NCBI RefSeq assembly: GCF_014243345.1
Contig: NZ_JACLZF010000002.1
Location: 806,001-870,000, forward strand
Length of the DNA: 64,000 bases
Source: Robiginitalea sp. SC105
GTDB taxonomy: Bacteria; Bacteroidota; Bacteroidia; Flavobacteriales; Flavobacteriaceae
Direction: 5' to 3'
The notes below the pieces were generated by a model that saw only the letters and a program-made list of their open reading frames with translations, had not been told where the DNA came from and did no database searches. This document shows, one piece after another, positions 14,030-32,275 of the stretch. The position numbers and the translations under genes are program-made. Within the stretch, counting starts at the first letter, position 1; each line of letters opens with the position of its first letter.

Positions 14030-17000
14030 ATGGAAAATGTAGTCCGTCTACGCCAATGTCTTAGTCGAGTAATCCGTATCGTCCAGGAGACGAACCTTTG
14101 GATGCAACCCTCCCATTTAATTGTCCGGACTGTTCCGGCATTCAATCGGAAATGGCTGTCGCTGATTCTATTGAGCCTTGCCCTGATGGGTTCCGGCCTT
14201 ACAGAAGCGGTCAGGGCACAAGCCGATTTGGCCGTTACCCCGGCAAGTTCAACCGTAAGTGTGGATGATACTTTCACCCTGACGGTTGAAGTGCAATCGA
14301 GTGGTCAGTCGTATGACCTGGCGGAGGTGTACCTGAGTTTTGACCCGGCGATTTTGGAAGTGCAATCCCTGACACCTGTTACAACCAGTCTTCCCATCCC
14401 ACTCGTGTCAGCGGTATTTGATAATACCCTGGGGACGATTGCCTATGGGGGCGGCACCTTCAGTAATTTTCCCTCCTCGGATTCCGACCTCCTTCAAATT
14501 GAATTCAAGGCCCTTGCCCCTGGGAATTCCGGGATAGATTTTTACGATCCTGATGGTGCCGCCTCCACCCTGGTGACTTTCGATGGGGCAAACATTCTGG
14601 GTACCGCCAACGGCGCATCGGTTACCGTGGAAATTGCCAATCTGCCTCCCATAGCCTCCTTTACCACTTCCTCGACGCTTGTGGGCGTCAACGATGTGGT
14701 TTCCTTCGATGCCGGCGCCTCCTCCGATCCTGATGCGGGTGACTTCATTACGAATTATTCCTGGGATTTCGGGGATGGTTCCCCAGCTGGCAATGGCCAG
14801 ACAACGGACCACAGTTATAATGCTACGGGAACCTATACGGTTACCCTTACAGTTACCGACAACAACCTGGCCACCGGGCAAAGCACCGAGACTATTCAGG
14901 TGCAGACTATTTCGGTCCCCACCTATACCATCAGTGCGAGCGTTACGGGTATAGGCGGATCCATAGATCCGGAAGGCGAGGTGGTGGTCGATGAAAACGC
15001 CAATCAACTATTCACCTTTACGGCAGATACGGGTTACGAAATCGACCAGGTGCTGGTAGACGGGAATCCGGTAACGCCAGACGGGACCCCGGAGCAGGGG
15101 ACTTTTGAAATTACAGGTGTAACCTCAAATCAGGACATTAGTGTCTCCTTTAGTGAAATCCCGCCATTCCAGCTGTGCATAGCTTCCGGAAACGGAGACC
15201 TGACGGCATTCGGCCGCTCCTTTGTCGGGGATCCGAATGCTGCGGCACCCACGGGAGCCGGCTTCAGCCGGACCAATGGTAAGCCCTACGTTGGATATAG
15301 TGGTGGAATCGCCGGCACTACGACGGGTACGGGTGAGGAGCTCCTGTTCCAGAAAGAAATTTACGGTGGTGCCGGTGGTACCAACCCTTCATTTATATAT
15401 GATATCCCTGTGGCCAATGGCTTTTATCAGGTAGACCTCTATTTTGCCGAAGTGTTCCATCCTGCTTCAGGCGGCAGGATTTTTGACGTTTTCCTGGATG
15501 GAAATCGGATCCTGGACGAATACGACCTGGTGGACCCCGTCAAGGACGGGTTGGGTTCCAATCAGACAGCCATTACCAGAACTTACTTCGTTCAGGTTAA
15601 TGACGGCAACGTATCCCTACAGATAGGCGACGCAACCGTAGACAATGGTAAGCTATCCGGAATCTGCATTACTGAGGTAGCATCAGCCAACCTCCACCCC
15701 CTGAGCAATATCGGGAACCTGGATGTCAATGCGGCGGAGGCCGCAGCTGCCCTTTTGAATATCAGCGACCCCGAAAGCGATGCGCTTACTGTGGTGCTCA
15801 ACGGGTTGCCTGCCAGCCTGTCCTACAACCCAACCAGCGGACAACTGGAGGGCACGCCCCTCGTTGGCGAGGTGGGCGTTTACACCATCAATGCGATTAT
15901 CAGTGATGGTACGAATGCAGCGGTAACCGAAGAATTCACATTGACGGTGAATCCACCGGCTGGGGATGACCCGCCCGTTATAACAGCTATCGCCAACATT
16001 GAAATTAATGAAGGCGCTCCGCTGTCCATACCCATTACCGTAACCGATGACTTCAACCCGGCTGCCAGCATTGAGATCTTCGATATCAGTGCCGGGGGAA
16101 CCAATAACCCTTTTACACCGACTACTTCGGTTTCAGTCGGATCCCTTACGGATAACGGAGGCGGCAGTTATAGCTTTGACTGGACCCCCGCCCCGGGGAC
16201 CGGGCGCTCCTATCTGGCTGTTGTCACAGCCAATGATGGGGTGAACACTCCCGTCACGGAATCTTTCCGGATCAATGTGGCCCAGCAGGTTCCGGGTACT
16301 ATCCTGGCACGGACCTTCAATAACCCCGACCCCTGGTATGGTTCCAGTGCCCCGGGTGCTGGATATTCTGTTGCCATTGAAACTTCTACGGCACAGAATA
16401 TCGGCTACATCGACAATGGGGATTTTGTTGAATACCTTGTCAACGTGCCTGCACCAGGACTCTTTGACCTGGAAGTCCAGGCAGCCAAAGGGAATGCCGG
16501 TACAACCACCGTAACTTTTTCTGAAAATTCTGGCGGCGGATTCACGCCCATCGGATCTGTCGGAGTCGTGAATAATGGCGCCGGCTGGCAGGACTACGCG
16601 GCCTATACCACCCAGGTCACTTTCCTCAATGCGGGATTGCAGACGTTGCGCCTTGATTTTAGCGCTGGTGCAAACATTGCCCAATTCAGTTTTACCGAGG
16701 TTAGCGGCAATACGGCTCCGGTAGTCGCGATCACCAGCCCGGCAGATGGCATCTATGCAACTTCCGACGCTGGCCTGAGTTTTACCGGAACGGCCAATGA
16801 CCCGGATGACGGGGACCTTTCGGCCAGCATCAGTTGGGAGTCCGACCTTGACGGATCCCTGGGCACCGGTTCTACAATAACCCCCACGCTTTCTGTGGGA
16901 ACCCATGTCATCACCGCCTCGGCTACCGACCTGGATGGTTCCAATCCGCTCACCGGGCAATCCAGTATCACGGTCATTATCGTGGATCCTGCGCCATTCT

Positions 17001-20000
17001 GTGCCACGCCGAGTTTCCGCGTGAATGCGGGCGGACCGATTGTATTTTCGGCCAACGGGGATTTTGAAGAAGACCAGAAAGCGACAGGACCGACCAATGG
17101 GACAGCCCAGCTCGGAACACCCTCGCCCTATCTGGACCTTACTCCTCCCGCAGAGGACACTACTTTTGGATCGAACGCCCCCCTGGCATCCAATGATACA
17201 GGATACCCGGACTATCTGTTTCAGACCGAGCGCTACAGCCAGGTTGCCAACCCGGACAATATGAACTGGTCCTTCCCAACCGGGAACGGCGTTTATGAAG
17301 TCAAGATGTTGTTCAATGAAAACTGGACCGGGGAGATCAACAACCCCAGGGTCTTCGACGTGGAGATCGAAGGGAATCTCGCGCTAAACGATTATCGTCC
17401 GTCCGGACCAACCGGGGCGGATGTCAACGTTGCGAAGGTGGAAACCTATACTGCCACCGTAACGGACGGCGTATTGAACATCAATTTTATCAAGGGAACG
17501 CAAAATCCTTCCATTAAAGGGTTTGACATTTGTTTCGTTTCCGAAGTCCTTTCCGTGCCTCCGGTCTTTACCGCTGAAATATCCAACCAGATTAATCTGG
17601 AAGGGGATAGCCCGGTCGGGTTATCGGTTGCGGCCAATGACCCGGACGGAACCGCGGTCACGTTCAGCGATAACGGGACTTTACCTACGGGTCTGACTAT
17701 TGACCCGGTTTCCGGTGCCATTAGCGGGACGATTTCAGCCGGAGCCGCTTTGGGCAGCCCTTATGCCGTGGTAATCACAGCAACAGATGAACAAGCGGAA
17801 AGCAGCACAAGTAGTTTTACCTGGGAAGTGCTCGCACCTGTAGGCCTGCCACTGTGTATCAATTCAGGTGACCAGGGACCTGTTTCGGCCTTTGGTCAGA
17901 GTTTTATAGCAGATTCCTATGTAACGCCTGCAGGGGGTAATTTCTTTACCACTACCAGTGCCATTACCGGAACTACCCCGGGTAGCGGGGAAGAGCAAAT
18001 GTATCAGTCCGAACATTGGACGAATGATGCATTAGGGTTGCGCTATGACATTCCCACAGGCAATGGAGATTTCTCCGTGGATCTCTATATGGCTGAACTT
18101 TTTGCCGATAATGCGGATGTCCGTATCATCGATATAACGATCGAAGGAGTTCCAGTGGAAACGGGGATCGATTTGGTTGGTGATTTCGGAAAATTTACTG
18201 CGGCGACCTTTACTTACCCGGTAACAGTATCTGACGGTTTCCTCAATATTGTAATTACCACGCAAGCAGGTAAGGATAACCCAAAACTCAATGGGCTCTG
18301 TGTTTCAGCTGCTGCAAGTAACACCCCGCCAGTTGTCAGCATTATCGCTCCCTCCGCTGGCACCGATATCACCCGTGGTCAGGCCACGACCCTGACCGCA
18401 ACGGCTAGCGATATCCAGGATGGGGATGTTACTTCCTCCATTGTTTGGACTTCTGGGGACACACAGTTTATCCCAGCGGGAAGCGGTGGCAACACAACCG
18501 GAACCTTTGTAACCCCAGGCCCTCAGACCCTGCGTGCAACTGCCCAGGATACGGAGCCCCTGGAAGGTTTTGATGAGATATCCGTCAATGTTTTGCCGCC
18601 TGCCGTGACTTTTGTAAGCCCGACCGCAGGGGAAACACTTGGGAGCTTGACAGTAAACGTTGAGGTAAATCCAACGGACGTCCTGTTTGGCAATGCGGAA
18701 CACTTCCATTTTTACATCAACCCGCCCGATGTCAATAACCTGGATATCGATACGCGTATTTCCTCTGCCGCACCGGCCGCATGGAAACTCAGTGATACCG
18801 AGTTTATCTTTGACGAAAACAGTGACGCGCTCTCGTCGAATGGCCTGGGCAATGGCATCGTTGAGGGAGAAAATACGATTGTCGTTGTGGTGGCTGACCA
18901 GTTCCACACGGAATTCTCAAACCCGGAAGCCAAGGCAGTGGTGACCTTTGACGTCTGCCTGACCTCCATCACGGAGATAGTGGGTACAGATCCAATTAAC
19001 TGCGAGGTCCCGGACGGATCTATAGTAATCACAGCGAACGGAACCAATTTGCAGTATAGTATCGACAACGGTGCCACTTTCCAGGCTTCCAACACTTTCC
19101 CTGGGTTGTCTGCCGGCACCTACGACGTTGTGGTGCAGCGCACGGATGACGCAAGTTGCGAGGCCACCGGCCAAGTCACCTTAAATGCCCCGGAGAGCCC
19201 CATGCCGTTAATCAGCGGACCGCTCACCTACCTCCAGGGAACCCCGGGGGTCACCCTGGATGCCGGTGCAGGATATACAAGTTACCAGTGGTCCACTGGC
19301 GAAACCTCCCAAACCATAGAGGTCACCGCCGGATCGTATTTTGTAACGGTAACCGATGCGAATGGGTGCGAGGGAACATCCAGCACGGTTTTGGTCGAAG
19401 AAACCAACGATGCGGAAAATCCGGTTGCTGTCTGTCAGCCTCTGGAGATTTTCCTGGATGAAAATGGATTGGCCACCCTGGTGGCAGACGACCTCGATGG
19501 CGGCTCCACGGATAATGCAGGAATTGCCAGCTTTGAAGCCAGCAAAACCAGTTTCGATTGCGGTGATCTGGGTGTCAACCAGGTCATGCTCACGGTATTT
19601 GACGTAAACGGCAACAGCGATTTCTGTATGGTCGATGTAACCGTTACTGACCCGTTAGCCCCGGATGTGAACTGTGCCGCGAACGTGATTGTAACCAGCA
19701 GCAATGGCAACCCGGTTGTGGTATCCGTGCCCGAACCCAGTGTCACAGACAACTGCGACACCGGCCTGACGGCAACGCCCACGCGTAGTGATAATGCCAG
19801 CCTTACGCTAAATGACCCCTTCCCGGTGGGTACTACCCAGATCCTGTGGTCGGTTGCGGATAATTCTGGCAACACAGGAACCTGTACCCAGAACGTTATT
19901 GTCAACTTTACGCCTTCGACAGGCAACGATATCGTAAGTTTCAGCGTGACCAACCAGTCAGGAAGTTCCGTGATCGACGCAATCGCGCATACGGTACAAT

Positions 20001-23000
20001 TCACCATGCCGTTTGGCACGGACCTGAACAGTTTATCCCCGGCCATTGGGGTATCGGCTTTTGCCACGATCACCCCTGAATCTGGTTCGAGCCAGGATTT
20101 CAGCACTCCAGTTGACTACACGGTTAAAGCGCAGGATAACTCCGAACAGGTATGGCGTGTGACGGGTTCCGTTGAAGGTGATAGTGAGCCACCCCAACTA
20201 ACCTGTTCACCTGACTTATGGATTCAGACAGATCCCGGGGTTTGTGAGGCGACATTCGATTTGAGTGCATCGTTATATGCTGCCACAGCTATTGACAATG
20301 ATGGACTGCCCCCTGTAATAACTTATTCGGCTGAACCGGACTGGATATTCCCAATAGGACTTACGGTAGTAACTGTGCAGGCAAGGGATGCCGCAGGTAA
20401 TACTGCAACTTGTAACGTCAATATAACTATTGTGGATAATTTGGCGCCTGAATTAACCTGTCCCGGGGATCAGGATTTCCTGGGTACGGATATTGTAGAA
20501 GGGACAGTTATTGGTGAGCTTCCCGATTTCACTGCACTTGCAGAAGTTTCAGATAATTGTGGCATCGCTTCTGTTGTGCAGGATCCGGCTCCCGGAACCC
20601 CGGTCTCAGGCGACGGATCAATAACAACTGTTACCCTTACGGTATTGGACGTTAACGGAAATGGGGCACAATGCTCTTTTAATGCACAATTGTTCCCACC
20701 TCTGGATGCACAGATTGGGGGACGGGTATGGGATGACCTCAATGCCAACGGCTTACAGGATGCAGGAGAACCCGGAATCGAATCTGTCCCGGTATTTCTT
20801 ACGGATTGTGTAACGGAGCTAAGTTTCTCTACTACTACCGATGCGAATGGTGAATATAATTTTGCAGGGTTGGTAGCTGGAAACTATAGGGTACAACTAC
20901 CTACGCTACCAGGTTATGCGTTTACCTCGCCAAATGTGGGAGGGGATGATAATATCGATTCCGATGTTACTGGTGATGAAACTAGTGGGGCAATTGACTG
21001 CTTTGAATTGGCCTTTGGTGACATGATTATAGTGGATGCCGGCATGTTCATTGAATCACCTGCGCTACTCGTCATAGAACCTTCCTCCATGGAGGAAACC
21101 CTGTACCCGGACCAGTCCGTACAGGTTTCCTATATCGTGGATTCGGACGATGCCAGCACCCTGCCTACGCCGGCTGCCATGAGCATTACGGATAATGCCA
21201 CAAGCAATCCGGCCAGCTGGGCATCCACCACGTCGGCGGCTAACCAGGGAACCCCCTATGAGGTGATCTTCAACAGCAACGGTTTGTCACCGGGCACCTA
21301 TACAGGTGTGCTGGAAGCCGGGCCTGTGTCCGGATATACCAACGCCAGTATCCCGATTACCTTTACCGTGGAACCCGTTCCACCGCTGGGCGTCCTGCAG
21401 TTTGTCCTGGTGAACGCCGATTCGAATACGGACTTGTTCGTGATCACCAACGGCATGGAGGTCGATCCGGCCACTCTGCCCACAGCTAACCTGAACATTC
21501 GCGCCCAGGCAACGCCTGATGCAGAAAGCGTGGTCATGCAACTCAGCGGGGCATTGACAAATAACCGCACGGAAAGCGTTCCACCCTATGCCCTCTACGG
21601 GGACAACTCTGGGAATTATTTTGCCCAGGTATTCCCGATTGGCAATTACAACCTGTCTGCAACGGCCTATTCCGGTAACGGAGGAGGCGGTACGGCAGGT
21701 GCCACTGCGAACGTCAGCTTCAGCTTTGTGGACGAAGATCCGATTTGTGCCGAATTCGACGCCAGCCTGGCCGGCAGCAGTAATCCCACCACCTGTTCCG
21801 GTACCGAAGGGAGCGCCACCATTGCCGTCATCGGGGCTACCGGTGAGGTCTCCTATACATGGAGCCACAACGGCAGCCTGAACAGTGCTTCGGCAACAGG
21901 ACTGGCTGCAGGTGCTTACAGTGTTACGGTCACTGATGCCAACGGGTGTACGGACGTAGTCGGATTCACCCTGACAGGGCCACCTCTGCCAGTGGTAACC
22001 CTGGCCCCGTTTGCCAGTGTACTCAACACGGATGCGCCCTTTGCCCTTTCGGGAGGTTCGCCTGCCGGGGGTACGTATAGCGGAACGGGTGTAAGCAGTG
22101 GGTTCTTCAACCCCTCTGTGGGTCCCGGAACCTTTGCAATTACCTATACCTATACTGATGGAAATGGTTGCACCAACAGTGCGGTTCGCAACATCGTGGT
22201 TACTTCCTCCATCGGAAGTTCCCCGCTGATCGTACTGAATGCCAATACAGACACGCAACTTTTTGCACTCACAGACGGGCTGGTGATTAACAAGGCAGAT
22301 ATTGGAGATACCCCATTGGGCGTGATTTTCAACCCGAACATTAACTCAGGAGGGGTACAGTTCAACCTGAGTGGCCCTATTACCCAGAACCGGTACGAAG
22401 GCCCGGCACCGCGATCCCTGTTCGGGGATATCGGAGTCGATATCCAGGGACAGCCATTCCCGGTTGGGAATTATACTCTGGTGGCAGACCCCAACAACGG
22501 ACCGACCATTACCGTAAACTTCTCGGTTGTGGATCAGAACCCGGTCTGTGCGGCATTCGAGGCCACCGTGGCAAGCAGTTCCAACCCAACTGGGTGTACG
22601 CTGTCTAACGGAAGTGCAACAATTGCCGTGAGTGGGTCAACTGGCACCTTGTCCTATTCATGGAGCCACAACGCCGGGTTGAACAGTGCCACGGCCACCG
22701 GTCTGGCTGCCGGATCCTACAGTGTTACGGTGAGTGACACCAATGGCTGTGTGGATGTGGTGAGCTTTACACTCTCCGGACCCCCACTGCCGACCGTAAG
22801 CCTGGCCGCGTTCCCGAGCGTCCTCAATACGGATGCGCCCTTTACCCTCACAGGCGGTTCTCCCGCAGGAGGCATCTATACGGGCACGGGGGTAGTTGGC
22901 GATACCTTTAATCCTGCAGTAGGACCGGGTACCTTCCCGATTACCTACACCTATACGGATGCCAGTGGTTGCAGCAACAGCGCTGTTCAGAATATCGTGG

Positions 23001-23623
23001 TAACCACCACAATCGGCAACTCGCCGCTGATTGTCCTGAACGCCAATACCGATACCGAGCTCTTTGCCCTTACGGATGGCCTGGTGATTTCCAAGGAAGT
23101 GATCGGGGAAACACCACTGGGCGTGATATGGAACCCGAATGTAAATTCTGGAGGGGTACAATTCAACCTGACCGGCCCGTTAACCGAAAGCCGGTTTGAA
23201 AGCCCGGCCCCGCGCTCCCTCTTCGGGGATATCGGGACCAATATCCTGGGTAAACCTTTCCCGGTGGGGAATTACACCCTGGTGGCCGACCCGAACATCG
23301 GGCCTACCGTCACGGTTAATTTCTCCGTTGTAAACAGCACGACCACGGCCCGAACTGCGGTTACAAACCCGGTGAAAGCGAGTCCGAACCCGGCAGATAC
23401 GGAAGTTACGCTTCAATTCGAGGAGCCGATACGCCTGGTTACCCTCCAGGTTTACGATACGGCCGGAAGGCTTGTGCGGGTAGTCCGTGCCAACGGAGAC
23501 CAGGATTTGCGTTCCTATCGATTGGATGTCATTGACCTGCCTATCGGAATGTACTACGTCAGGATAACGGATGCCAACGGGCAGTCCTATCAGGAAGAAG
23601 TCCTTGTCAGCAGGTACCGGTAA
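14030..23623 (+). CDS. Giant T9SS-secreted surface protein with N-terminal cohesin module, malectin, PKD, CBM6-like, SprB and HYR-like domains
   Basis: A 3197-codon protein. The signal peptide core is LSLILLSLALMGSG, cleaved after VRAQA near residue 65; a start at 14102 is also possible. Domains in order: cohesin (about 66-200, TPASSTVSVDDTFTLTVEV, then YLSFDPAILEV, IEFKALAPG); PKD (204-290, SWDFGDGSP); InlB-like (298-377); malectin 1 (380-550); two Ig/cadherin-like; CBM6-like (755-894); Ig-like; malectin 2 (992-1174) and 3 (1273-1430) with Ig-like spacers; SprB-like (1645-1723); HYR-like repeats (1794 to about 2220); SdrD B-like (2226-2340); a repeat block; and a type A T9SS sorting domain in the last 80 residues (SPNPADTEVTLQF, YDTAGRLVR, LPIGMYYVRITDANG). 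It should be displayed on the cell surface and bind glycans. The dockerin protein gene follows 30 bases downstream. Confidence 0.92.
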   Translation: MENVVRLRQCLSRVIRIVQETNLWMQPSHLIVRTVPAFNRKWLSLILLSLALMGSGLTEAVRAQADLAVTPASSTVSVDDTFTLTVEVQSSGQSYDLAEVYLSFDPAILEVQSLTPVTTSLPIPLVSAVFDNTLGTIAYGGGTFSNFPSSDSDLLQIEFKALAPGNSGIDFYDPDGAASTLVTFDGANILGTANGASVTVEIANLPPIASFTTSSTLVGVNDVVSFDAGASSDPDAGDFITNYSWDFGDGSPAGNGQTTDHSYNATGTYTVTLTVTDNNLATGQSTETIQVQTISVPTYTISASVTGIGGSIDPEGEVVVDENANQLFTFTADTGYEIDQVLVDGNPVTPDGTPEQGTFEITGVTSNQDISVSFSEIPPFQLCIASGNGDLTAFGRSFVGDPNAAAPTGAGFSRTNGKPYVGYSGGIAGTTTGTGEELLFQKEIYGGAGGTNPSFIYDIPVANGFYQVDLYFAEVFHPASGGRIFDVFLDGNRILDEYDLVDPVKDGLGSNQTAITRTYFVQVNDGNVSLQIGDATVDNGKLSGICITEVASANLHPLSNIGNLDVNAAEAAAALLNISDPESDALTVVLNGLPASLSYNPTSGQLEGTPLVGEVGVYTINAIISDGTNAAVTEEFTLTVNPPAGDDPPVITAIANIEINEGAPLSIPITVTDDFNPAASIEIFDISAGGTNNPFTPTTSVSVGSLTDNGGGSYSFDWTPAPGTGRSYLAVVTANDGVNTPVTESFRINVAQQVPGTILARTFNNPDPWYGSSAPGAGYSVAIETSTAQNIGYIDNGDFVEYLVNVPAPGLFDLEVQAAKGNAGTTTVTFSENSGGGFTPIGSVGVVNNGAGWQDYAAYTTQVTFLNAGLQTLRLDFSAGANIAQFSFTEVSGNTAPVVAITSPADGIYATSDAGLSFTGTANDPDDGDLSASISWESDLDGSLGTGSTITPTLSVGTHVITASATDLDGSNPLTGQSSITVIIVDPAPFCATPSFRVNAGGPIVFSANGDFEEDQKATGPTNGTAQLGTPSPYLDLTPPAEDTTFGSNAPLASNDTGYPDYLFQTERYSQVANPDNMNWSFPTGNGVYEVKMLFNENWTGEINNPRVFDVEIEGNLALNDYRPSGPTGADVNVAKVETYTATVTDGVLNINFIKGTQNPSIKGFDICFVSEVLSVPPVFTAEISNQINLEGDSPVGLSVAANDPDGTAVTFSDNGTLPTGLTIDPVSGAISGTISAGAALGSPYAVVITATDEQAESSTSSFTWEVLAPVGLPLCINSGDQGPVSAFGQSFIADSYVTPAGGNFFTTTSAITGTTPGSGEEQMYQSEHWTNDALGLRYDIPTGNGDFSVDLYMAELFADNADVRIIDITIEGVPVETGIDLVGDFGKFTAATFTYPVTVSDGFLNIVITTQAGKDNPKLNGLCVSAAASNTPPVVSIIAPSAGTDITRGQATTLTATASDIQDGDVTSSIVWTSGDTQFIPAGSGGNTTGTFVTPGPQTLRATAQDTEPLEGFDEISVNVLPPAVTFVSPTAGETLGSLTVNVEVNPTDVLFGNAEHFHFYINPPDVNNLDIDTRISSAAPAAWKLSDTEFIFDENSDALSSNGLGNGIVEGENTIVVVVADQFHTEFSNPEAKAVVTFDVCLTSITEIVGTDPINCEVPDGSIVITANGTNLQYSIDNGATFQASNTFPGLSAGTYDVVVQRTDDASCEATGQVTLNAPESPMPLISGPLTYLQGTPGVTLDAGAGYTSYQWSTGETSQTIEVTAGSYFVTVTDANGCEGTSSTVLVEETNDAENPVAVCQPLEIFLDENGLATLVADDLDGGSTDNAGIASFEASKTSFDCGDLGVNQVMLTVFDVNGNSDFCMVDVTVTDPLAPDVNCAANVIVTSSNGNPVVVSVPEPSVTDNCDTGLTATPTRSDNASLTLNDPFPVGTTQILWSVADNSGNTGTCTQNVIVNFTPSTGNDIVSFSVTNQSGSSVIDAIAHTVQFTMPFGTDLNSLSPAIGVSAFATITPESGSSQDFSTPVDYTVKAQDNSEQVWRVTGSVEGDSEPPQLTCSPDLWIQTDPGVCEATFDLSASLYAATAIDNDGLPPVITYSAEPDWIFPIGLTVVTVQARDAAGNTATCNVNITIVDNLAPELTCPGDQDFLGTDIVEGTVIGELPDFTALAEVSDNCGIASVVQDPAPGTPVSGDGSITTVTLTVLDVNGNGAQCSFNAQLFPPLDAQIGGRVWDDLNANGLQDAGEPGIESVPVFLTDCVTELSFSTTTDANGEYNFAGLVAGNYRVQLPTLPGYAFTSPNVGGDDNIDSDVTGDETSGAIDCFELAFGDMIIVDAGMFIESPALLVIEPSSMEETLYPDQSVQVSYIVDSDDASTLPTPAAMSITDNATSNPASWASTTSAANQGTPYEVIFNSNGLSPGTYTGVLEAGPVSGYTNASIPITFTVEPVPPLGVLQFVLVNADSNTDLFVITNGMEVDPATLPTANLNIRAQATPDAESVVMQLSGALTNNRTESVPPYALYGDNSGNYFAQVFPIGNYNLSATAYSGNGGGGTAGATANVSFSFVDEDPICAEFDASLAGSSNPTTCSGTEGSATIAVIGATGEVSYTWSHNGSLNSASATGLAAGAYSVTVTDANGCTDVVGFTLTGPPLPVVTLAPFASVLNTDAPFALSGGSPAGGTYSGTGVSSGFFNPSVGPGTFAITYTYTDGNGCTNSAVRNIVVTSSIGSSPLIVLNANTDTQLFALTDGLVINKADIGDTPLGVIFNPNINSGGVQFNLSGPITQNRYEGPAPRSLFGDIGVDIQGQPFPVGNYTLVADPNNGPTITVNFSVVDQNPVCAAFEATVASSSNPTGCTLSNGSATIAVSGSTGTLSYSWSHNAGLNSATATGLAAGSYSVTVSDTNGCVDVVSFTLSGPPLPTVSLAAFPSVLNTDAPFTLTGGSPAGGIYTGTGVVGDTFNPAVGPGTFPITYTYTDASGCSNSAVQNIVVTTTIGNSPLIVLNANTDTELFALTDGLVISKEVIGETPLGVIWNPNVNSGGVQFNLTGPLTESRFESPAPRSLFGDIGTNILGKPFPVGNYTLVADPNIGPTVTVNFSVVNSTTTARTAVTNPVKASPNPADTEVTLQFEEPIRLVTLQVYDTAGRLVRVVRANGDQDLRSYRLDVIDLPIGMYYVRITDANGQSYQEEVLVSRYR
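21385..23335 (+). repeat. Alternating A-B-A-B-A protein-domain repeat inside the cohesin protein gene
   Basis: Two module types alternate. Module A (about 105-120 residues, LIVLNANTDTELFALTDG to PFPVGNYTLVADP) occurs at about 21385-21740, 22217-22530 and 23020-23335. Module B (SprB-like plus Ig-like, SNPTGC, TWSHNGSLNSATATGLAAG, then SGGSPAGGTYSGTGV) occurs at about 21750-22208 and 22545-23015. The second and third A copies and the two B copies are the most alike, also at DNA level, so the last A-B unit was probably duplicated recently. Confidence 0.85.
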
Positions 23624-23653
23624 CTCAAATCGCATTTTAAAGAGATCATAATT

Positions 23654-26600
23654 ATGAAGATTTTCATCCCACATACACCAATTCATATGAAATCCCGACG
23701 CCCAATTCGGGTAATACTGGGACTGTTCATCCTGCTGCTTTGTGCGGCAGGTTCGGTCCAGGCCCAATCATTTAGTTCCAGTCAATTGAATTTCAACGGG
23801 AACGGGGGCGTAAACCAGGGGACCTCCCTGATGTTCGGTCCTGACGGACGGCTTTATGTCCTGCAGCTCAATGGCACCATCGATATTTTTACCATCCAGC
23901 GAAACGGGGTTGATGATTATGTCGTGACTGCCAGCGAGGAGTTGTTACTGGTCAAGAATATCCCGAACCACAATGACGATGGGAGTTCCAATGCGAATAA
24001 CAATAGAGAAGCTACCGGGATCACCGTAGCGGGTACTGCCAGCAACCCGGTGATCTATGCAACCTCCAGCGATAGCCGGGTCGGTGGTCCCGGTGGGGAT
24101 GCAAACCTGGACACGAATTCCGGGGTGATCACCCGGATTACCTGGACGGGATCGAGTTGGGATGCCGTGGACATAGTCCGCGGGCTGCCCCGTTCCGAGG
24201 AAAACCACGCGACAAATGGCCTGGAGTTCGTGACCATCGGGGGCACGGATTACCTGATTGTGGCGTCGGGAGGGTTTACCAATGCTGGTTCCCCCTCGGA
24301 CAATTTTGCCTGGACCACGGAATACGCACTTTCCGCGGCTATCCTTTCGGTCAACCTGACCATGCTGGAGGCCATGCCCATCCAGAACGACGGGGTACGG
24401 AATTACATTTACGATATTCCCACCCTGGACGACCCCACCCGGGCCAATGCCAATGGTATTACGGATCCGGATAGCCCGGGCTACAATGGGATCGATGTGA
24501 ATGACCCCTGGGGCGGGAATGACGGCCTCAACCAGGCCATGGTGGTCGAAGGTGGCCCCGTGCAGATCTTCTCACCGGGATACCGTAACTCCTATGACCT
24601 GGTCGTTACCCAGGATGGCAAGGTATATGCCACGGATAATGGCGCCAACGGGGGATGGGGAGGATTACCTGTCAATGAAGGCACTGCGAATGTCAACAAT
24701 GATTATATATCCAGTGAACCGGGCAGTTCCGCTTCTGTAGGGGGGGAGCAGGTCAATAACCAGGACCACCTGACGCTGATTACCACGGATATCCAAAGCT
24801 ATACCTTTGGGAGTTTTTACGGGGGCCATCCGGCCCCGGTCCGGGCAAATCCCGCAGGAGCCGGACTTTTCACAAACCCGGAAGTAAATTCGTATAATCC
24901 GGCTACTTCGGTCTTCCGGACGCTGATTTACGATCCGGATGGTTCGACACCGGGATCAACCACAAACCCGAACATTGCACTACCCGCCAACTGGCCACCG
25001 GTACCTGTAAGCCTGGCCAACCCCGATGAAGGAGATTGGCGTGGCCCTGGGATCGGAAATCCGGACGGCCCTAGCGATGTCCTGGTTACCACTTGGGGTA
25101 CGAATACGAATGGTATCGATGAGTATACCGCTTCCAACTTCGCAGGGGCGATGCAGGGAAATTTGCTTGCCGGAACCAATGGAGGAGCGCTGCGTCGTGT
25201 TGAACTCAATGCGAGTGGCAACCTGGATAACCTGACCAACACCTTTATCTCAAACCTGGGCGGAAATGCCCTGGGGATCACCTGCAATTCCGATTCCGAT
25301 CCCTTCCCGGGAACAATTTGGGTTGCTCCGTTCAATGGTTCCATAGTAGTTTTGGAACCCCAGGATTTTGTGATTTGTATCCTCCCTGGAGAAGCCGGAT
25401 ACGATCCCCTTGCCGATAATGACGGTGACGGCTACACGAACCAGGATGAAATCGACAACCTGCTTCCCGGTCAGACCATTGAGCAAGTAATCTGCAATGG
25501 GGGGAACCAACCCAATGATTTTGACAAAAACGCAGGCGGGACCCTGGTTTCGGACCTCAATGACAACGATGACGATGCCGACGGGATTCCGGACGGGTCG
25601 GACCCCATGCAATTGGGCAATCCGATCGATTCGGGTTCCGACGCCTTCGATTTACCCGTACTGAATGACCTGCTTTCGGATAACCCGGTCCTGCAGGGCT
25701 ATCTCGGGCTGGGATTTACCGGGATGATGAACAACGGGGACACGGGCGCCAACTGGCTTAACTGGCTGGACCGGCGTGACGATCCTGCCGACCCGAACCC
25801 CAATGACATCCTCGGGGGCGCCACGGGTTCCATGACCATGCAGATGACGGCGGGAACGGCCTTGGGAACGGCAAACACCCAGGAAAAAGCATTTCAATAT
25901 GGCGTCAATGTAAGCACAGCCACAGGAGGTTTTACGGTGGAAAGCCGTTTGTTCAACTTCAACGACCCTTTGCAGTTATATGATGCAGCTTCCCCGGCCA
26001 ATGGCGAACTCGGTATCTTCATTGGAGATGGGACTCAAAGCAATTACATCAAACTTGTAATTACAAAAAACGGGATCAATGCATTGCAGGAACTTGACGA
26101 TACACCCCAGACGCTCACAGAACTCAATGTAACGATCGACCCCTCGGACCGGCCGGCAAACGCCGTTACCTTTTCATTTGTAGTGGATCCGACAACTGGG
26201 TTGGTGACCTTGCAATACCAATTCGACAACGACCCGGTGCAAACCCTGGGAACCATGAATGCTGGTGGCGCGATACTTACGGCCATCCAAAACGCGGGCA
26301 CCCCACTCATGGTAGGTTTTATCGGCTCCTCAAACGCAACCGGCGAAGAGGTGGAAGGCACCTGGGATACCCTCAATGTGCAGGGCAGCCAGCCGGCCGT
26401 GGAACAGGATTTTCCGGAGGTGAGTGTATTAACGGGTGCTAGTGCAACTTCCCTGAACCTGGATGAATTTTTCTCAGATGACGGAGGGGATGGGAATCTG
26501 ACCTACACCATTCAAAATAACACAGATCCCGCAATCGGTGCGAGCATCAGTGGAAGTACCCTGAACCTGACTTTTCCCGCAACCGCGGCAACATCGAATA

Positions 26601-29600
26601 TCACTATCCGGGCGGCGGATACCGGGGGATTGTTCATTGAACAAGTCCTAACTGTTAACGTATCCGATGAACCGGTGCCGATCGTCCGAATCCGGGCAAA
26701 CGGGGCCACCATCGCAGCTACCGATGCCGGGAACCCCGACTGGGTGGGCGTTACGGCCACGGGTGCCCAAAATGGCACCTCCAATGGATTTAGCTGGTCC
26801 GTCAACACCGGTAACCACTCCACCCACAACATCGCCGGACGCCATGCGTCAGTTCCCGCTTACGTACCCCAGGCCCTATTTGCCAACGAGCGCTGGGATC
26901 CGGAGGCTGCCCCCGAGATGCAGTGGGATATAGCGCTTCCCAACAATGAATCCTATGTGGTCCGCCTTTATATGGGGAACGGATTTGCAGGAACCTCAGG
27001 CATCGGGCAACGGGTCTTCGATATCTCTATTGAGGGGAACCTGGTACAGAATGATCTGGACCTGGTACAAACCTTTGGCCACCAGGTCGGGGGGATGCTT
27101 GAATATCAGGTGAATCTTACAGATGGCACCCTGAACATCCTCTTTGAACACGTAACGGAGAACCCGACGGTCAATGGGATTGAAATCCTCAGCCTTGGAG
27201 GATCTTTCGCCCCGCCGATCTCCGTGGAACCCATCGCAAATCAAACAAATTTTGAAGGCGACCTGATCAACTTCAATGTGGCTGCCAGCGGAGGCGATAG
27301 TAATGAAAACTTTGGCTATTCGGCCACCGGTATGCCACCGGGGATCAGCATTGAGCCTACCACGGGCCTGATTTTCGGCAACATCGATACAGGGGCTTCT
27401 GCGGGGAGCCCATACAACCCAACCGTAACGGTGAGCAAGCCCGGCAGTGCTTCGGTGCAGGTGAATTTCAGTTGGACCGTTTTGGACCCCAGTACCACCG
27501 GGACCGCGCTGTTCCGAGTCAATGCGGGCGGGGCGCTTACCCCCTCCAATGATGCCGACCCAAAAAGCTGGGATGCGGACCAGACGGTTGCAACTCCCGG
27601 AGGCACAGCAACGACCGGTACACCATCCCCCTATGTTAATAGCGCCGCCGAGGACGAGACCTTCGGTGCTGCCGTAACCACAGGGTTCACCAATACCACC
27701 GGTTATCCGGATGCCCTTTTTACCACCGAACGCTATAATACGCTGGCCGTCCCTGATAATATGCAATGGGATTTCCCGGTTCCCAACGGCAACTATACGG
27801 TAAATTTACTTTTTGCCGAGATTTGGACCGGAGCTCAGACTGCTGGCGTCCGGGTATTTGATGTCGAAATCGAGGGTAATCTGGTGCTGGACGACCTGGA
27901 CCAGACGGCGGCCTATGGCTGGGAGACAGCCGCTGTTGAGACCTTTGCAGTAACTGTTACCGATGGGAACCTGGACATCGACTTTATCCAGGGTATACAG
28001 AACCCGAGCATCAAAGGGATTGAAATCCTCCCTTCTGGTCCTCCGGCCGAACTGCAATGGACCGACCAGACCGACGACGAGAATTACACGGCCCGCCATG
28101 AAGCCTCTTTTGTGCAGGCCGGGGACAAGTTTTATTTGTTTGGCGGCCGGGAAAATTCTTCCAGTCTGGATGTGTATGACTACCAGTCCAAGACATGGTC
28201 GACTATTTCCAATTCGGCCCCATCCGAATTCAACCACTTCCAGGCCCTGGAGTATAATGGCCTGATTTGGGTGATCGGCGCATTCAAAAACAACGCTTTC
28301 CCCAACGAACTCCCGGCGGATTATGTCTGGGCGTATAACCCGGCCCAGGACACCTGGATCCAGGGCCCGGAAATTCCGCCTGCCCGTAAACGGGGTTCTG
28401 CTGGCTTAGTTGTCTACAATGATAAGTTTTATGTGATCGCCGGAAATACCATAGGCCATAATGGCGGTTACCAGGCCTGGTTCGACGAATTCGACCCGGC
28501 CACCGGGGTTTGGACAACGCTTACGGATGCGCCAAGGGCCAGGGACCACTTCCATGCCGAGGTCATTGGAGACAAGCTCTACGTGGCAGGTGGAAGGCTT
28601 TCCGGCGGAACCGGCGGGACCTTTGCCCCGCTGATTGCAGAAGTGGATGTGTATGACTTTACCAGCGGGACCTGGTCCACGCTGCCTTCCGGACAAAATC
28701 TCCCCACACCCAGGGGTGCGGCTTCCGTGGCTGTGTTCCAGAATGAGCTTTATGTCATTGGCGGGGAGATCGGGGTCGACCTCCAGGGGAACACGATAAA
28801 CGATGCCCAGAAGACCACCGAATCCTATAATCCGGTAACCGGCACCTGGACGACCCGGGCCGACCTGATTACGGAGCGGCATGGGACCCAGGCCATTGTT
28901 TCCGGAGACGGAATCCATATAACTGCCGGTTCCAATACCCAGGGAGGCGGCGGCACCATGAAAAACATGGAATTCTATGGGACCGATAACCCGAGCGGCA
29001 CTCCCCTAACGGCTGGTCAGCTCAGCGTTGCATCCTCCCTGACAGTAACAACCGGCGGGGCCTCCGTGATCACGCTCAACAATGCTGCAGGGAATACCGG
29101 GATCATCGTTACCGGGGCCCAACTCGGCGGGGGCGATGCCGGGAACTTCCAGATTGTTTCAGACCTGGAATTCCGGTTTATCCCACCCGGGGGATCACTC
29201 GATGTATTTATCGGCCATACCGGAGCGACGGACGGGGACGTGGCATTGCTCACCTTCCAGTACGACGGGACCAACAGCTCCCCGGTGGCCCTGACCTCCG
29301 GCGAGTCACAGGCCACTGTGCTCTATCGGATCAATACGGGTGGGCCGCTGACTGCGGCAACCGACAGCCCGAACCCGGATTGGGAACAGGATACGGGTGT
29401 TTTTGGCACGGCCGGGAATTCGACTTACCTGACAGGTGCTACCGCCACCGGCGGCACCTTTGATCAGTCTTCCGCAAGTGCTTATCAGGGGCCGATCGTA
29501 ATGACCGACCCGTCGCTTCCGGCAGGAACCCCGGTCTCCATATTCCAGACGGAGCGTTTTGATGCAGCTGCGGCGCCTGAAATGACCTGGGCTTTCCCGG

Positions 29601-32275
29601 TAACTGCGGGGACCACCGTAGAGGTACGCCTCTACTTTGCCGAACTGTTCAATGGTATTACTGCAGCAGAGCAGCGCGTCTTCGATGTATCTGTGGAAGG
29701 ATCCGTACCCGCCGCGTTCAATGACATCGATCAGTTTGCGCGCAATGGGGCGCTTGGCGCTTTCATGTTGAGCCATACCCTGGTGGTTTCGGACGGGACC
29801 CTGAACCTCGAGTTCATACACGGGGTTGAAAACCCCAATATCAAGGCCATAGAAATCATTGATCTCGGTGGCACTCCCGTCAATACCCCGCCTGTGGTGA
29901 CCAACCCCGGGATCCAGCAAGGAGTGGAGGGCGACGCAGTCAGCCTGGCCATTCAAGCCTCTGACCTGGACCCCTGCGGCCCGCTGACCTATAGCGCCGA
30001 GGGCTTGCCGCCTTCCCTTAACATCAACCCTTCTACGGGCGTTATAACCGGAACCCTGGATGAAGGGTCTGGATCTGGTGTGGCCGGGGCTTATATAGAG
30101 AATGGCGGGCTTGTGATGATCGAGGCTGAAAACGATTTTACAGACACTCCAGGTGGTTGGAATCCACTCACGGATAGCGGGGTAGATTATCTGGTGGCCA
30201 GTACCAACCACTTTGGCGATACGAATGGCCAGACGGTGGACTATTCTTTCCAGATCAATACCCCGGGCGTTTACCGCTTCCATATGAAATCTGCAATTTC
30301 GGGCACGGTATTTTCGGATGAGAATGACACCTGGTTCCGGATCGTGAATACACCAGATGTGCATTTCTTTTGTGTATTAGGTTCGGCAAATGCACTCTCG
30401 GGGACCTCTGAATTCGAGGGTATCCTGGCAGGTAATCCAACTTCGAAGGAAATCTTCTATCCGGCGGGGAATGCTATGGGCCGTCCGGACCATGGAACCG
30501 AAAATCCTGGAGTTAACGGATTTTTTAAAGTGTACCGCTCAGGTAGTGGAGGTAACAAATGGAGCACAATTACCATTGACAATAGCGCAGGCACACCTGT
30601 ATATGCCTATTTCCCAAATGCCGGCACCTTTACCATTTCCATGTCCGAACGTTCAGCCGGTCATCGGGTCGACCGCTTTGCGCTTGTGCACATAGATGAT
30701 GTCAGTACCGGAACTCCGACGACAACTCTGGATAATGCCCCCCAATCCCAGCAAACCGTTGGAGGTACCCCCGGGGCGGCAGACAACAGTCCTTACAACG
30801 TGACTGTTACCGTGGCAGATGGATGCGACCCGGCTTTGTCCTCAACCGTGGATTTCGTTTGGAATGTGACGGATACCCCTCCTACGGGTACCCCTTCAGC
30901 ACTTTTCGAAATTACGCCTGGAAGTGGGATAGATGCCAGTACCTATGGGGCCAATAGTCTGCAACTGACCAATACCTCCACGGGTAACATTCAGATTACC
31001 AGTATAACCATCGACTTGAGCACGGGGATCCTACCTGATAATGTATTCGACCCGGTTGGAACCGGCGGGGATGCCACGGCAAGCTGTTTTACGGCAAATA
31101 GCGGAGCCGCTGCTACCGGACTGATTGCCCCTGCAGATCCCTGCGTGGATCCCTTCAGCCAGCCGCGCAATGGAGGCTATGATGTGATGAGTTTGAGTTT
31201 TTCTGAATTTGATCCGTCTGAAGCCCTGTTCTTTACGGTCGATGTGGACCCGAACAGCATACAGGGGGTTCCCGGGGCCGGTGCAGCCGGTGCGGTTTCC
31301 GGATTCGAACTGGTCGGGGCTACCATTACAATCAGCTTCAGTGACGGATCGACGGTAGTCGGAAGTCTTTATGAGGACGGAAGTTTTGGCGGCTCCCAAA
31401 TTCTAACGGGATCTGCTCCCACCACTCCGAGCATCAGCATGCTGGATGTGGGTACCGGACCTGCAACCGTCGCCGACCTGAATCAGGTCATGCAGATCAG
31501 CGGGAACCCGGGAGACTATGTTTCCCTATTGCAGATGGATTCCAGGCTCTACATTGCCTCGGGAGATCCGCCCTTCAATGTGCCGGATCCGACCTATTAT
31601 GCCAACGAGGCGGTGAACAAGGCTTTGTATACCGGACAAATCCCGGCTGGAGGTACCCTGGACATCCCGGTCACCCTGTTGCAGACTGCGAGTACGGATA
31701 CGGGGCCGGATGGAGGGCTCAACCAGTTTATCGCGGTGAGTTCCACCCAGCCCTATGCGGTGGACCAGCCCGTCAGCAATACCTCCAATGTGGTTACCAT
31801 CCTCTACGATCCCAATTTCCAGCAGGCCCAGGCCAACCTGTCCTATACCTTGCAGGGAAGGACCGATTATACGGCCGACCTTACCGTGGAATTTTACGAA
31901 ACCGGTCAGACGACCCCATCCCTGAGCTTCACTGTGAGCGGGGACGCGACCGGCACGGGGTTGATCGAGGACCTGCCGGTAGGGGACTATTCCGTGGCGG
32001 TCAAAGCTGATAAGTACCTGCAACGCGTCATTGCGGTGAGCCTTGTGGACGGGCCAAACACCATTAATTTTGGGCAGTTGCTGGCCGGGGACGCCAACAA
32101 TGACAACCAGGTTACCGGATTGGACTTTTCCATCCTGGCGGGCACCTACAACCTGACTTCGGGCGATACCGGATATGACGACCGGGCCGATTTCAACGGA
32201 GACGGTCAGGTAACCGGTCTCGACTTCTCGCTGCTGGCGAGCAATTACAATGTTTCAGGCGAGATTGTGGAATAA
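23654..32275 (+). CDS. Giant secreted protein with sugar-dehydrogenase-like propeller, malectin and Kelch domains and a C-terminal type I dockerin
   Basis: A 2873-codon protein with a signal peptide (VILGLFILLLCAAGSVQAQ, cleaved near 37). Order: glucose/sorbosone dehydrogenase-like propeller (about 39-579); calcium-binding TSP3-like stretch (580-660, DNDGDGYTNQDE); lectin/LamG-like region (663-913); cadherin-like; malectin 1 (1009-1181); Ig-like; malectin 2 (1286-1461); six Kelch blades (1466-1777); ASPM-like (1783-1885); malectin 3 (1889-2073); an Ig-like domain split by a carbohydrate-binding-like insert (2147-2372); and a dockerin (2809-2869). Both dockerin repeats have the full calcium pattern: DANNDNQVTGLD and DFNGDGQVTGLD. 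No T9SS sorting domain follows; the protein ends eight residues after the second repeat. It may dock onto the cohesin of the upstream protein (inference). An alternative start is 23687. Confidence 0.92.
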   Translation: MKIFIPHTPIHMKSRRPIRVILGLFILLLCAAGSVQAQSFSSSQLNFNGNGGVNQGTSLMFGPDGRLYVLQLNGTIDIFTIQRNGVDDYVVTASEELLLVKNIPNHNDDGSSNANNNREATGITVAGTASNPVIYATSSDSRVGGPGGDANLDTNSGVITRITWTGSSWDAVDIVRGLPRSEENHATNGLEFVTIGGTDYLIVASGGFTNAGSPSDNFAWTTEYALSAAILSVNLTMLEAMPIQNDGVRNYIYDIPTLDDPTRANANGITDPDSPGYNGIDVNDPWGGNDGLNQAMVVEGGPVQIFSPGYRNSYDLVVTQDGKVYATDNGANGGWGGLPVNEGTANVNNDYISSEPGSSASVGGEQVNNQDHLTLITTDIQSYTFGSFYGGHPAPVRANPAGAGLFTNPEVNSYNPATSVFRTLIYDPDGSTPGSTTNPNIALPANWPPVPVSLANPDEGDWRGPGIGNPDGPSDVLVTTWGTNTNGIDEYTASNFAGAMQGNLLAGTNGGALRRVELNASGNLDNLTNTFISNLGGNALGITCNSDSDPFPGTIWVAPFNGSIVVLEPQDFVICILPGEAGYDPLADNDGDGYTNQDEIDNLLPGQTIEQVICNGGNQPNDFDKNAGGTLVSDLNDNDDDADGIPDGSDPMQLGNPIDSGSDAFDLPVLNDLLSDNPVLQGYLGLGFTGMMNNGDTGANWLNWLDRRDDPADPNPNDILGGATGSMTMQMTAGTALGTANTQEKAFQYGVNVSTATGGFTVESRLFNFNDPLQLYDAASPANGELGIFIGDGTQSNYIKLVITKNGINALQELDDTPQTLTELNVTIDPSDRPANAVTFSFVVDPTTGLVTLQYQFDNDPVQTLGTMNAGGAILTAIQNAGTPLMVGFIGSSNATGEEVEGTWDTLNVQGSQPAVEQDFPEVSVLTGASATSLNLDEFFSDDGGDGNLTYTIQNNTDPAIGASISGSTLNLTFPATAATSNITIRAADTGGLFIEQVLTVNVSDEPVPIVRIRANGATIAATDAGNPDWVGVTATGAQNGTSNGFSWSVNTGNHSTHNIAGRHASVPAYVPQALFANERWDPEAAPEMQWDIALPNNESYVVRLYMGNGFAGTSGIGQRVFDISIEGNLVQNDLDLVQTFGHQVGGMLEYQVNLTDGTLNILFEHVTENPTVNGIEILSLGGSFAPPISVEPIANQTNFEGDLINFNVAASGGDSNENFGYSATGMPPGISIEPTTGLIFGNIDTGASAGSPYNPTVTVSKPGSASVQVNFSWTVLDPSTTGTALFRVNAGGALTPSNDADPKSWDADQTVATPGGTATTGTPSPYVNSAAEDETFGAAVTTGFTNTTGYPDALFTTERYNTLAVPDNMQWDFPVPNGNYTVNLLFAEIWTGAQTAGVRVFDVEIEGNLVLDDLDQTAAYGWETAAVETFAVTVTDGNLDIDFIQGIQNPSIKGIEILPSGPPAELQWTDQTDDENYTARHEASFVQAGDKFYLFGGRENSSSLDVYDYQSKTWSTISNSAPSEFNHFQALEYNGLIWVIGAFKNNAFPNELPADYVWAYNPAQDTWIQGPEIPPARKRGSAGLVVYNDKFYVIAGNTIGHNGGYQAWFDEFDPATGVWTTLTDAPRARDHFHAEVIGDKLYVAGGRLSGGTGGTFAPLIAEVDVYDFTSGTWSTLPSGQNLPTPRGAASVAVFQNELYVIGGEIGVDLQGNTINDAQKTTESYNPVTGTWTTRADLITERHGTQAIVSGDGIHITAGSNTQGGGGTMKNMEFYGTDNPSGTPLTAGQLSVASSLTVTTGGASVITLNNAAGNTGIIVTGAQLGGGDAGNFQIVSDLEFRFIPPGGSLDVFIGHTGATDGDVALLTFQYDGTNSSPVALTSGESQATVLYRINTGGPLTAATDSPNPDWEQDTGVFGTAGNSTYLTGATATGGTFDQSSASAYQGPIVMTDPSLPAGTPVSIFQTERFDAAAAPEMTWAFPVTAGTTVEVRLYFAELFNGITAAEQRVFDVSVEGSVPAAFNDIDQFARNGALGAFMLSHTLVVSDGTLNLEFIHGVENPNIKAIEIIDLGGTPVNTPPVVTNPGIQQGVEGDAVSLAIQASDLDPCGPLTYSAEGLPPSLNINPSTGVITGTLDEGSGSGVAGAYIENGGLVMIEAENDFTDTPGGWNPLTDSGVDYLVASTNHFGDTNGQTVDYSFQINTPGVYRFHMKSAISGTVFSDENDTWFRIVNTPDVHFFCVLGSANALSGTSEFEGILAGNPTSKEIFYPAGNAMGRPDHGTENPGVNGFFKVYRSGSGGNKWSTITIDNSAGTPVYAYFPNAGTFTISMSERSAGHRVDRFALVHIDDVSTGTPTTTLDNAPQSQQTVGGTPGAADNSPYNVTVTVADGCDPALSSTVDFVWNVTDTPPTGTPSALFEITPGSGIDASTYGANSLQLTNTSTGNIQITSITIDLSTGILPDNVFDPVGTGGDATASCFTANSGAAATGLIAPADPCVDPFSQPRNGGYDVMSLSFSEFDPSEALFFTVDVDPNSIQGVPGAGAAGAVSGFELVGATITISFSDGSTVVGSLYEDGSFGGSQILTGSAPTTPSISMLDVGTGPATVADLNQVMQISGNPGDYVSLLQMDSRLYIASGDPPFNVPDPTYYANEAVNKALYTGQIPAGGTLDIPVTLLQTASTDTGPDGGLNQFIAVSSTQPYAVDQPVSNTSNVVTILYDPNFQQAQANLSYTLQGRTDYTADLTVEFYETGQTTPSLSFTVSGDATGTGLIEDLPVGDYSVAVKADKYLQRVIAVSLVDGPNTINFGQLLAGDANNDNQVTGLDFSILAGTYNLTSGDTGYDDRADFNGDGQVTGLDFSLLASNYNVSGEIVE

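Follow-up and report, generated by a model that had tools for sequence, protein, structure and literature searches.

Two adjacent giant genes

The window, by which we mean the whole 64,000-nucleotide stretch of Robiginitalea sp. SC105 DNA analyzed here, contains two giant open reading frames on the same (+) strand, encoding P0001 (14030–23623, 3197 amino acids) and P0002 (23654–32275, 2873 amino acids). A 30-base spacer (23624–23653, +) separates them, and the coordinates agree with the initial annotation, which had described two adjacent giant genes at this distance. P0001, the putative anchor partner, is composed of a signal peptide and a cohesin, modules of the PKD, malectin, HYR, and SdrD_B families, and a C-terminal sorting domain (CTD) of type A for the type IX secretion system (T9SS). 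P0002, the putative cargo partner, is composed of a signal peptide, an N-terminal core, malectin modules, a kelch stretch, and a dockerin. Both signal peptides were judged by eye.

All features of the two proteins lie on the + strand. The core of the P0001 cohesin, as delimited by PF00963, occupies 14234–14545 (modeled stretch, 14213–14641), the best malectin stretch 15173–15646 (residues 382–539), and the CTD 23381–23593 (residues 3118–3188, by TIGR04183). In P0002, a core that is common to CTD-ended relatives (23687–27481, residues 12–1276) is shared with a homologue in genome G098 at 36.8% identity; six further cargoes match P0002 at 35.5–37.3%, from a residue between 10 and 36 to residue 1278. 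The kelch stretch follows at 28052–28594 (residues 1467–1647), and a two-repeat type I dockerin forms the C-terminus (32084–32239, residues 2811–2862). As had been claimed for this pair, malectin and Ig-like modules are common to both proteins, with a Pfam scan finding three malectin stretches in each along with putative Ig (He_PIG) stretches.

A GC-rich hairpin located 3' of P0002 (32300–32326, unstranded), with an A run before it and a T run after it, is likely to be a terminator, possibly one common to P0002 and a convergent YebC-like gene. The hairpin was not among the matches of a consensus scan for promoters and terminators, and that scan gave no excess over shuffled sequences. Farther along the window (58207–62169) is a hybrid two-component regulator having a Reg_prop propeller, a kinase, a receiver, and an AraC-type HTH.

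A divergent cohesin in P0001

The initial annotation had placed a cohesin after the signal peptide of P0001, and had named profile and fold as the check on it. Both bear the assignment out. In a search of the genome, PF00963 matched P0001 with 29.7 bits (E 1.6e-6), and the excised module scored 30.5 bits (cut-off 24.1). This was the only match at E 0.001 in the 3.58-Mb genome (99.99% complete), a statement that is valid for what PF00963 detects, since the profile fails on the cohesin of R. myxolifaciens (G873). A search with an alignment of adaptor-type cohesins (A4) likewise yielded a single match there. The module appears to be a divergent member of its family, as the cohesin was absent from the Pfam list when the whole 3197-amino acid protein was scanned at E 0.01, and phmmer found nothing among PDB sequences at E 0.1. 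The AlphaFold2 (AF2) model, which was built from 24 sequences, has a mean pLDDT of 94.7 and adopts the β-sandwich fold of cohesins. Foldseek matched it to the PDB with a best E of 3.3e-10 (TM 0.76), and the best 50 of 102 matches at E 0.001 were all entries of cohesins or of cohesin-dockerin or scaffoldin complexes. A second PF00963 match in P0001 (20360–20668), seen at E 0.01, a threshold at which E. coli also matches, was below the cut-off at 17.8 bits.

A type I dockerin in P0002

The C-terminus of P0002 scored 39.7 bits with PF00404 (cut-off 22.9), and was the sole match to this profile in the window genome at E 0.001. Ten PDB sequences were matched by the dockerin at E 0.01, nine of them cellulosomal dockerin or enzyme/scaffoldin chains and the tenth a sarcoplasmic calcium-binding protein. 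Both repeats keep the ligands D1, N3, D5, and D12. The profile, together with two duplicated calcium loops having D/N ligands, places the module among type I dockerins, just as the annotation had it: a two-repeat dockerin with complete ligands at the end of P0002.

The same annotation had called the pair cellulosome-like, and this description did not survive. It would have the cohesin of P0001 recruit several dockerin-bearing enzymes, for which one can point to the presence of both modules and to multi-cohesin proteins in other Bacteroidota. Against this stand one cohesin and one dockerin, as counted by Pfam profile in a 99.99% complete genome, and a Pfam scan of P0002 at E 0.01 that matched no glycoside hydrolase family. 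The enzyme model NF049877 of NCBIfam scored far below its cut-off in P0001 and P0002, and only at malectin stretches. We saw neither a scaffoldin with several cohesins nor several dockerin-bearing enzymes in the window genome, and we rejected this explanation as highly improbable.

A sorting domain found in P0001 but not in P0002

The C-terminus of P0001 scored 39.5 bits with TIGR04183 and 43.6 bits with PF18962, above the respective cut-offs of 23 and 27, whereas P0002 had no match at E 0.01 to these or to other sorting-domain families. P0001 is thus a T9SS substrate of type A by profile and P0002 is not, and both halves of this division had been noted at the outset. The T9SS machinery is represented in the genome by SprA (SprA_N, 454 bits). 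SprA is the translocon pore of the T9SS, and we know of no T9SS route out of the cell for a protein without a CTD. The translocon of F. johnsoniae binds the CTD within SprA, and its substrates have been inferred to exit CTD first; a CTD-less fusion was used as a control in that work (PMC10994853, in part).

Dockerin and CTD replace each other among relatives of P0002

The best 78 of 260 relatives of the P0002 core were taken as loci, and their modules were called with HMMs built in this analysis. Eighteen of these loci are dockerin-ended, 33 are CTD-ended, and three have dockerin and cohesin on one chain; of the 24 others, which could not be scored, a contig end cuts 21 and three are masked. 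A cohesin gene adjoins the core in 16 of the 16 dockerin-ended loci in which the start of the neighbor is visible, and in none of the 33 CTD-ended loci as judged by a second set of cohesin HMMs. The first HMM had missed several partner cohesins that were seen by eye, and the second set was seeded with those sequences, so that 0/33 is a better test of absence at CTD-ended loci than 16/16 is of presence at dockerin-ended ones. With Pfam, one of five partner cohesins scored above the cut-off, three scored below it, and one had no match.

All 16 visible neighbors open with what looks like a signal peptide, followed by a cohesin, with that of L128 lacking its first residues. The neighbors of the other two dockerin-ended cores (L107 and L125) are cut, but have a CTD at their end. 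A CTD ends every partner gene whose end is in view (10/10), and six Lewinella-type partners run off their loci. The partner gene precedes the core gene in Robiginitalea, Arenibacter, and Maribacter and follows it in the Lewinella relatives, which argues that the arrangement is not one frozen layout.

A tree built from 90 cores, of which 66 were scored, implies at least three changes of state between dockerin or fusion and CTD, with Neolewinella maritima (L110) and G098c marking two of the places. The gene upstream of L110 ends 713 bases away, and its start is outside the locus. These changes indicate that the association of dockerin and partner has arisen repeatedly, yet the independent events are few, and much of the 16/16 versus 0/33 pattern is shared ancestry. 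One core gene, from a record titled Myxococcota MAG MO_167.B22 (L130), groups among Flavobacteriaceae on the trees and possibly belongs to a contig contaminating that MAG.

These comparisons bear on whether the joint might serve anchoring only, with P0002 leaving the cell by vesicles, lysis, or an unrecognized signal and then being captured by the surface cohesin of P0001. Cohesin-dockerin pairs have been used or inferred for surface attachment elsewhere, as far as the partial sources go, and a CTD-less endoglucanase of Bacteroidetes is abundant both extracellularly and in the periplasm, for which vesicles have been suggested (PMC6247017, in part). However, most relatives of P0002 own a CTD (33 of the 54 scored loci) and the dockerin occupies its place, whereas a module for capture could sit anywhere in the protein; a second export signal was not detected by profile. 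We consider anchoring alone to be unlikely, though the most serious of the alternatives.

Small adaptor genes

Looked at from the side of the cohesin, the association appears again. Adaptor-type cohesins numbered 14 in 13 genes from 11 of 397 Flavobacteriaceae genomes, and 12 of the 13 genes adjoin a dockerin-ended, CTD-less relative of P0002. The exception, in genome G992 (L224, 9609–10790), has a signal peptide, two cohesins, and a CTD but no dockerin neighbor; it may serve a cargo encoded elsewhere, and G992 has in addition a standard adaptor pair (L225). Nine of the 13 adaptor genes encode only 251–393 amino acids, essentially one or two cohesins between a signal peptide and a CTD. TIGR04183 was above its cut-off in 8/8 small single-cohesin adaptors scanned (of the nine minimal ones), while PF00963 on the eight minimal single-cohesin adaptors was above its cut-off in four, below it in two, and without a match in two.

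Genome G098 has three homologues in a row. Two of these are dockerin-ended and each is followed by an adaptor of 251–252 amino acids; the third, which ends in a CTD itself, is not followed by an adaptor. The start of the first homologue is cut by the contig end. The initial proposal that the dockerin protein is held by the cohesin of P0001 is strongly supported by these comparisons (16/16 versus 0/33, and 12/13 in the reverse direction), and holds as a prediction of binding.

In the genus Robiginitalea, four of 10 genomes (the window genome and three of the nine others) have a relative of the P0001 cohesin, and in the same four the next gene ends in a dockerin. PF00963 alone detects the cohesin in three of them. 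Flanking genes are conserved in the three other genomes of this set. A fifth dockerin hit in the genus, in a genome without a cohesin (G876), was rejected, as its frame looks like a receptor, by eye presumably of the SusC/TonB kind.

Two further arrangements were observed. A minimal pair occurs at the same site in four genomes (L223, L225, L228, and L229), and the gene beside the dockerin cargo there has an end that we take to resemble that of SecA. In genome G836 (L199, 7884–9866), a gene for a 270-amino acid cohesin-CTD protein is followed by one for a 386-amino acid protein that combines a cohesin with a dockerin slightly under the Pfam cut-off and that showed no CTD; judged from its modules, this may be a second, unrelated type of cargo in the phylum.

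Concerted change of the dockerin repeats

The two 21-residue repeats were compared within and between proteins for 32 of 33 compiled dockerins, using 2000 shuffles and without correction for kinship. Agreement within proteins exceeded that between proteins at positions 7, 9–11, 13, 14, 16–18, 20, and 21 (at most 1 of 2000 shuffles), being 0.88 versus 0.27 at position 10 and 0.72 versus 0.20 at position 11. No within-protein excess was seen in these dockerins at positions 2, 4, 6, 8, and 15. We take positions 10, 11, 17, and 18 to be the classical specificity positions. Such concerted change is what selection on a two-fold face for cohesin binding would be expected to produce, and would fit the two-fold symmetry described for the binding faces of type I dockerins (PMC12484212, in part). 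For 27 pairs, the distance at face positions correlated with cohesin distance given core distance (partial Mantel r 0.43, 0 of 5000). Control positions correlated as well (r 0.24, p 0.006), so that face and control are separated only in part and the test is no more than suggestive of a coupling of the dockerin face to cohesin distance.

Fusions and co-occurrence

In Neolewinella persica (L122) and Portibacter lacus (L121), core, dockerin, cohesin, and CTD occur on one chain. The dockerin and CTD of both are above Pfam cut-offs, and the cohesins were identified with the HMMs built here, that of L122 also matching PDB cohesins by fold. The L121 fusion has, in addition, a neighbor with several cohesins and a dockerin. 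The third chain (L142) joins dockerin and cohesin with no recognized CTD, and its dockerin is slightly under the Pfam cut-off (21.4 bits). An AF2 model of the dockerin-cohesin stretch of L122 has well-folded domains, but a pTM of 0.63 and a low-confidence linker. Dockerin-only and cohesin-only rows aligned imperfectly to this natural fusion: in A2 and A3 the first strand or strands of the cohesin-only rows are out of place, and A5 looked worse. A3 was the one folded, which makes the model weaker evidence than that of the P0001 cohesin. Such fusions could favor intramolecular pairing or polymerization. Cohesin, dockerin, and CTD were all in one protein in five of 20 loci from searches of the class and phylum, and a strict division of labor is therefore not universal in the phylum.

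Among 395 genomes of the class, 41 had both modules, 24 a cohesin only, 62 a dockerin only, and 268 neither. Both modules would be expected in 17 genomes (Fisher p 3.5e-12, uncorrected for relatedness). In 149 genomes of the family, a dockerin match was seen in 12, and these include all three in which PF00963 found a cohesin (p 4e-4, likewise uncorrected). These counts are probably diluted by false dockerin matches of the receptor type. Six weak hits in the family (L010–L015) were set aside as receptor-like by eye, in the same way as G876. SusC-type receptors (L010–L015 and L089) have a calcium-loop-like stretch that mimics half a dockerin at 21–26 bits, and weak PF00404 matches in Bacteroidota need checking.

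We also considered that the dockerin might be a calcium-stabilized C-terminal cap that does not serve the neighboring cohesin, with adjacency reflecting inherited linkage. The few independent events on the tree would be compatible with this, as would the dockerin matches without a detected cohesin in 62 of the 103 class genomes with such a match, although some weak matches are receptor-like (7/7 weak hits that were translated looked so by eye). A cap would leave unexplained the 16/16 versus 0/33 contrast, the 12/13 association in reverse, the minimal adaptors, the fusions, and the concerted change of the repeat faces, and we regard it as very improbable, if somewhat less so than recruitment of several enzymes.

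A proposed sorting domain in trans

P0001 and P0002 have the form of a pair in which a CTD-less dockerin cargo adjoins a cohesin-CTD gene. Our preferred reading, to which we assign a probability of roughly 0.7, is that the two proteins form one surface fiber through a calcium-dependent cohesin-dockerin bond, with the CTD being provided in trans and export probably occurring jointly through SprA. The dockerin of P0002 is located at the C-terminus, where most scored relatives have their CTD, and from the sequence comparisons we conclude that it probably stands in for the missing CTD, which would be supplied in trans by the cohesin protein. The N-terminal cohesin of P0001 would bind the C-terminal dockerin of P0002, thereby giving it a CTD. 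P0002 would then trail P0001 as the complex, led by its CTD end, passes the SprA translocon, and the final order would be cell, CTD, P0001, cohesin:dockerin, P0002. A C-terminal dockerin on the cargo and an N-terminal cohesin on P0001 and the adaptors would result in the polarity of a single passenger-CTD chain.

The claims that make up this fiber differ in strength. Surface coupling of P0001 and P0002 is well supported as a prediction from gene content and arrangement. Piggyback export of P0002 goes further, and we infer it, as we do binding, joint export, the final topology, and any part that the fiber plays in adhesion or in binding carbohydrate. Export was not a topic of the initial annotation. 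Since we know of no exit through the T9SS without a CTD, the joint probably contributes to passage across the outer membrane as well as to anchoring. Export as a complex appears to be the simplest account of a CTD-bearing family whose members lack a CTD only alongside a cohesin-CTD gene. The malectin and kelch modules suggest that the fiber may bind glycans. More tentative, and in our estimate a little short of even odds, is the generalization that dockerin and cohesin act as a T9SS secretion signal in trans, in which cargo would be loaded onto its adaptor in the periplasm, the noncovalent complex would pass through SprA, the dockerin would be a detachable replacement for the CTD, and dockerin and CTD would have been exchanged more than once.

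Relation to known systems

Archaeoglobus fulgidus has, to our knowledge, no T9SS, and we know of no exchange of its cohesin-dockerin pair against a sorting domain; its natural cohesin and dockerin genes are presumably neighbors. As in the window, the cohesin and dockerin of this organism are noncellulosomal, and they form a usable binding pair (PDB 2xdh; PMC9705933, in part). The model of the P0001 cohesin matches the fold of 2xdh with E 9.4e-8.

The anchors of clostridial cellulosomes belong to Gram-positive bacteria, which have no outer membrane to cross. Clostridial anchoring scaffoldins (SLH or sortase) likewise combine an anchored cohesin with a dockerin on the cargo (PMC9012536 and PMC12484212, in part), but unlike P0001 and P0002, clostridial cellulosomes have many cargoes per system. 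Compared with type A substrates of the T9SS (PMC10994853), P0001 and the adaptors are alike in having their own sorting domain, whereas P0002 would use the CTD of another chain.

The closest precedent is Ca. Stygibacter (Cloacimonadota), in which a CTD-bearing cohesin protein has been inferred to hold proteins with dockerins on the surface of its own cell (PMC8542988, in part). That system has a large tandem-cohesin scaffoldin and dockerin enzymes. The system described here differs from it in having one cohesin per dedicated cargo, adaptors of as few as 251 amino acids, and evidence for replacement of a cargo's CTD by dockerin plus adaptor. The earlier suggestion of a distinct design is accordingly only partly upheld. 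A scaffoldin with a CTD had already been inferred (PMC8542988), while the parts seen of the literature on cohesins or dockerins with type IX secretion, on Bacteroidetes, and on noncellulosomal cohesins contain no description of a single-cohesin CTD adaptor for one cargo.

If the preferred reading is true, it would account for T9SS cargo that does without a sorting domain, and counts of CTDs would miss such cargo. It would give noncellulosomal cohesins and dockerins a specific job, and would constitute a natural two-part display system of Bacteroidota, composed of an adaptor of ~250 amino acids and a dockerin tag of ~60. Whether the SprA translocon passes a noncovalent two-chain complex would then be a testable question.

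An absence of cohesins and dockerins has been called consistent with other Bacteroidetes genomes (PMC5831590, in part). Our class totals, with cohesin matches in 65 of 395 genomes and dockerin matches in 103 of 395 (some of the latter false), indicate that this statement, in the part of the source seen, is not general. Eight genomes of one family (f51) in the class Bacteroidia, each of 1.7–2.2 Mb (G306, G336, G414, G437, G477, G496, G515, and G532), have from 5 to at least 10 cohesin matches and from 14 to at least 16 dockerin matches apiece, and G515 has frames of 5272 and 5737 amino acids with several cohesins. From these module counts, the f51 genomes look as though they encode genuine scaffoldins and, within Bacteroidota, a system resembling a cellulosome.
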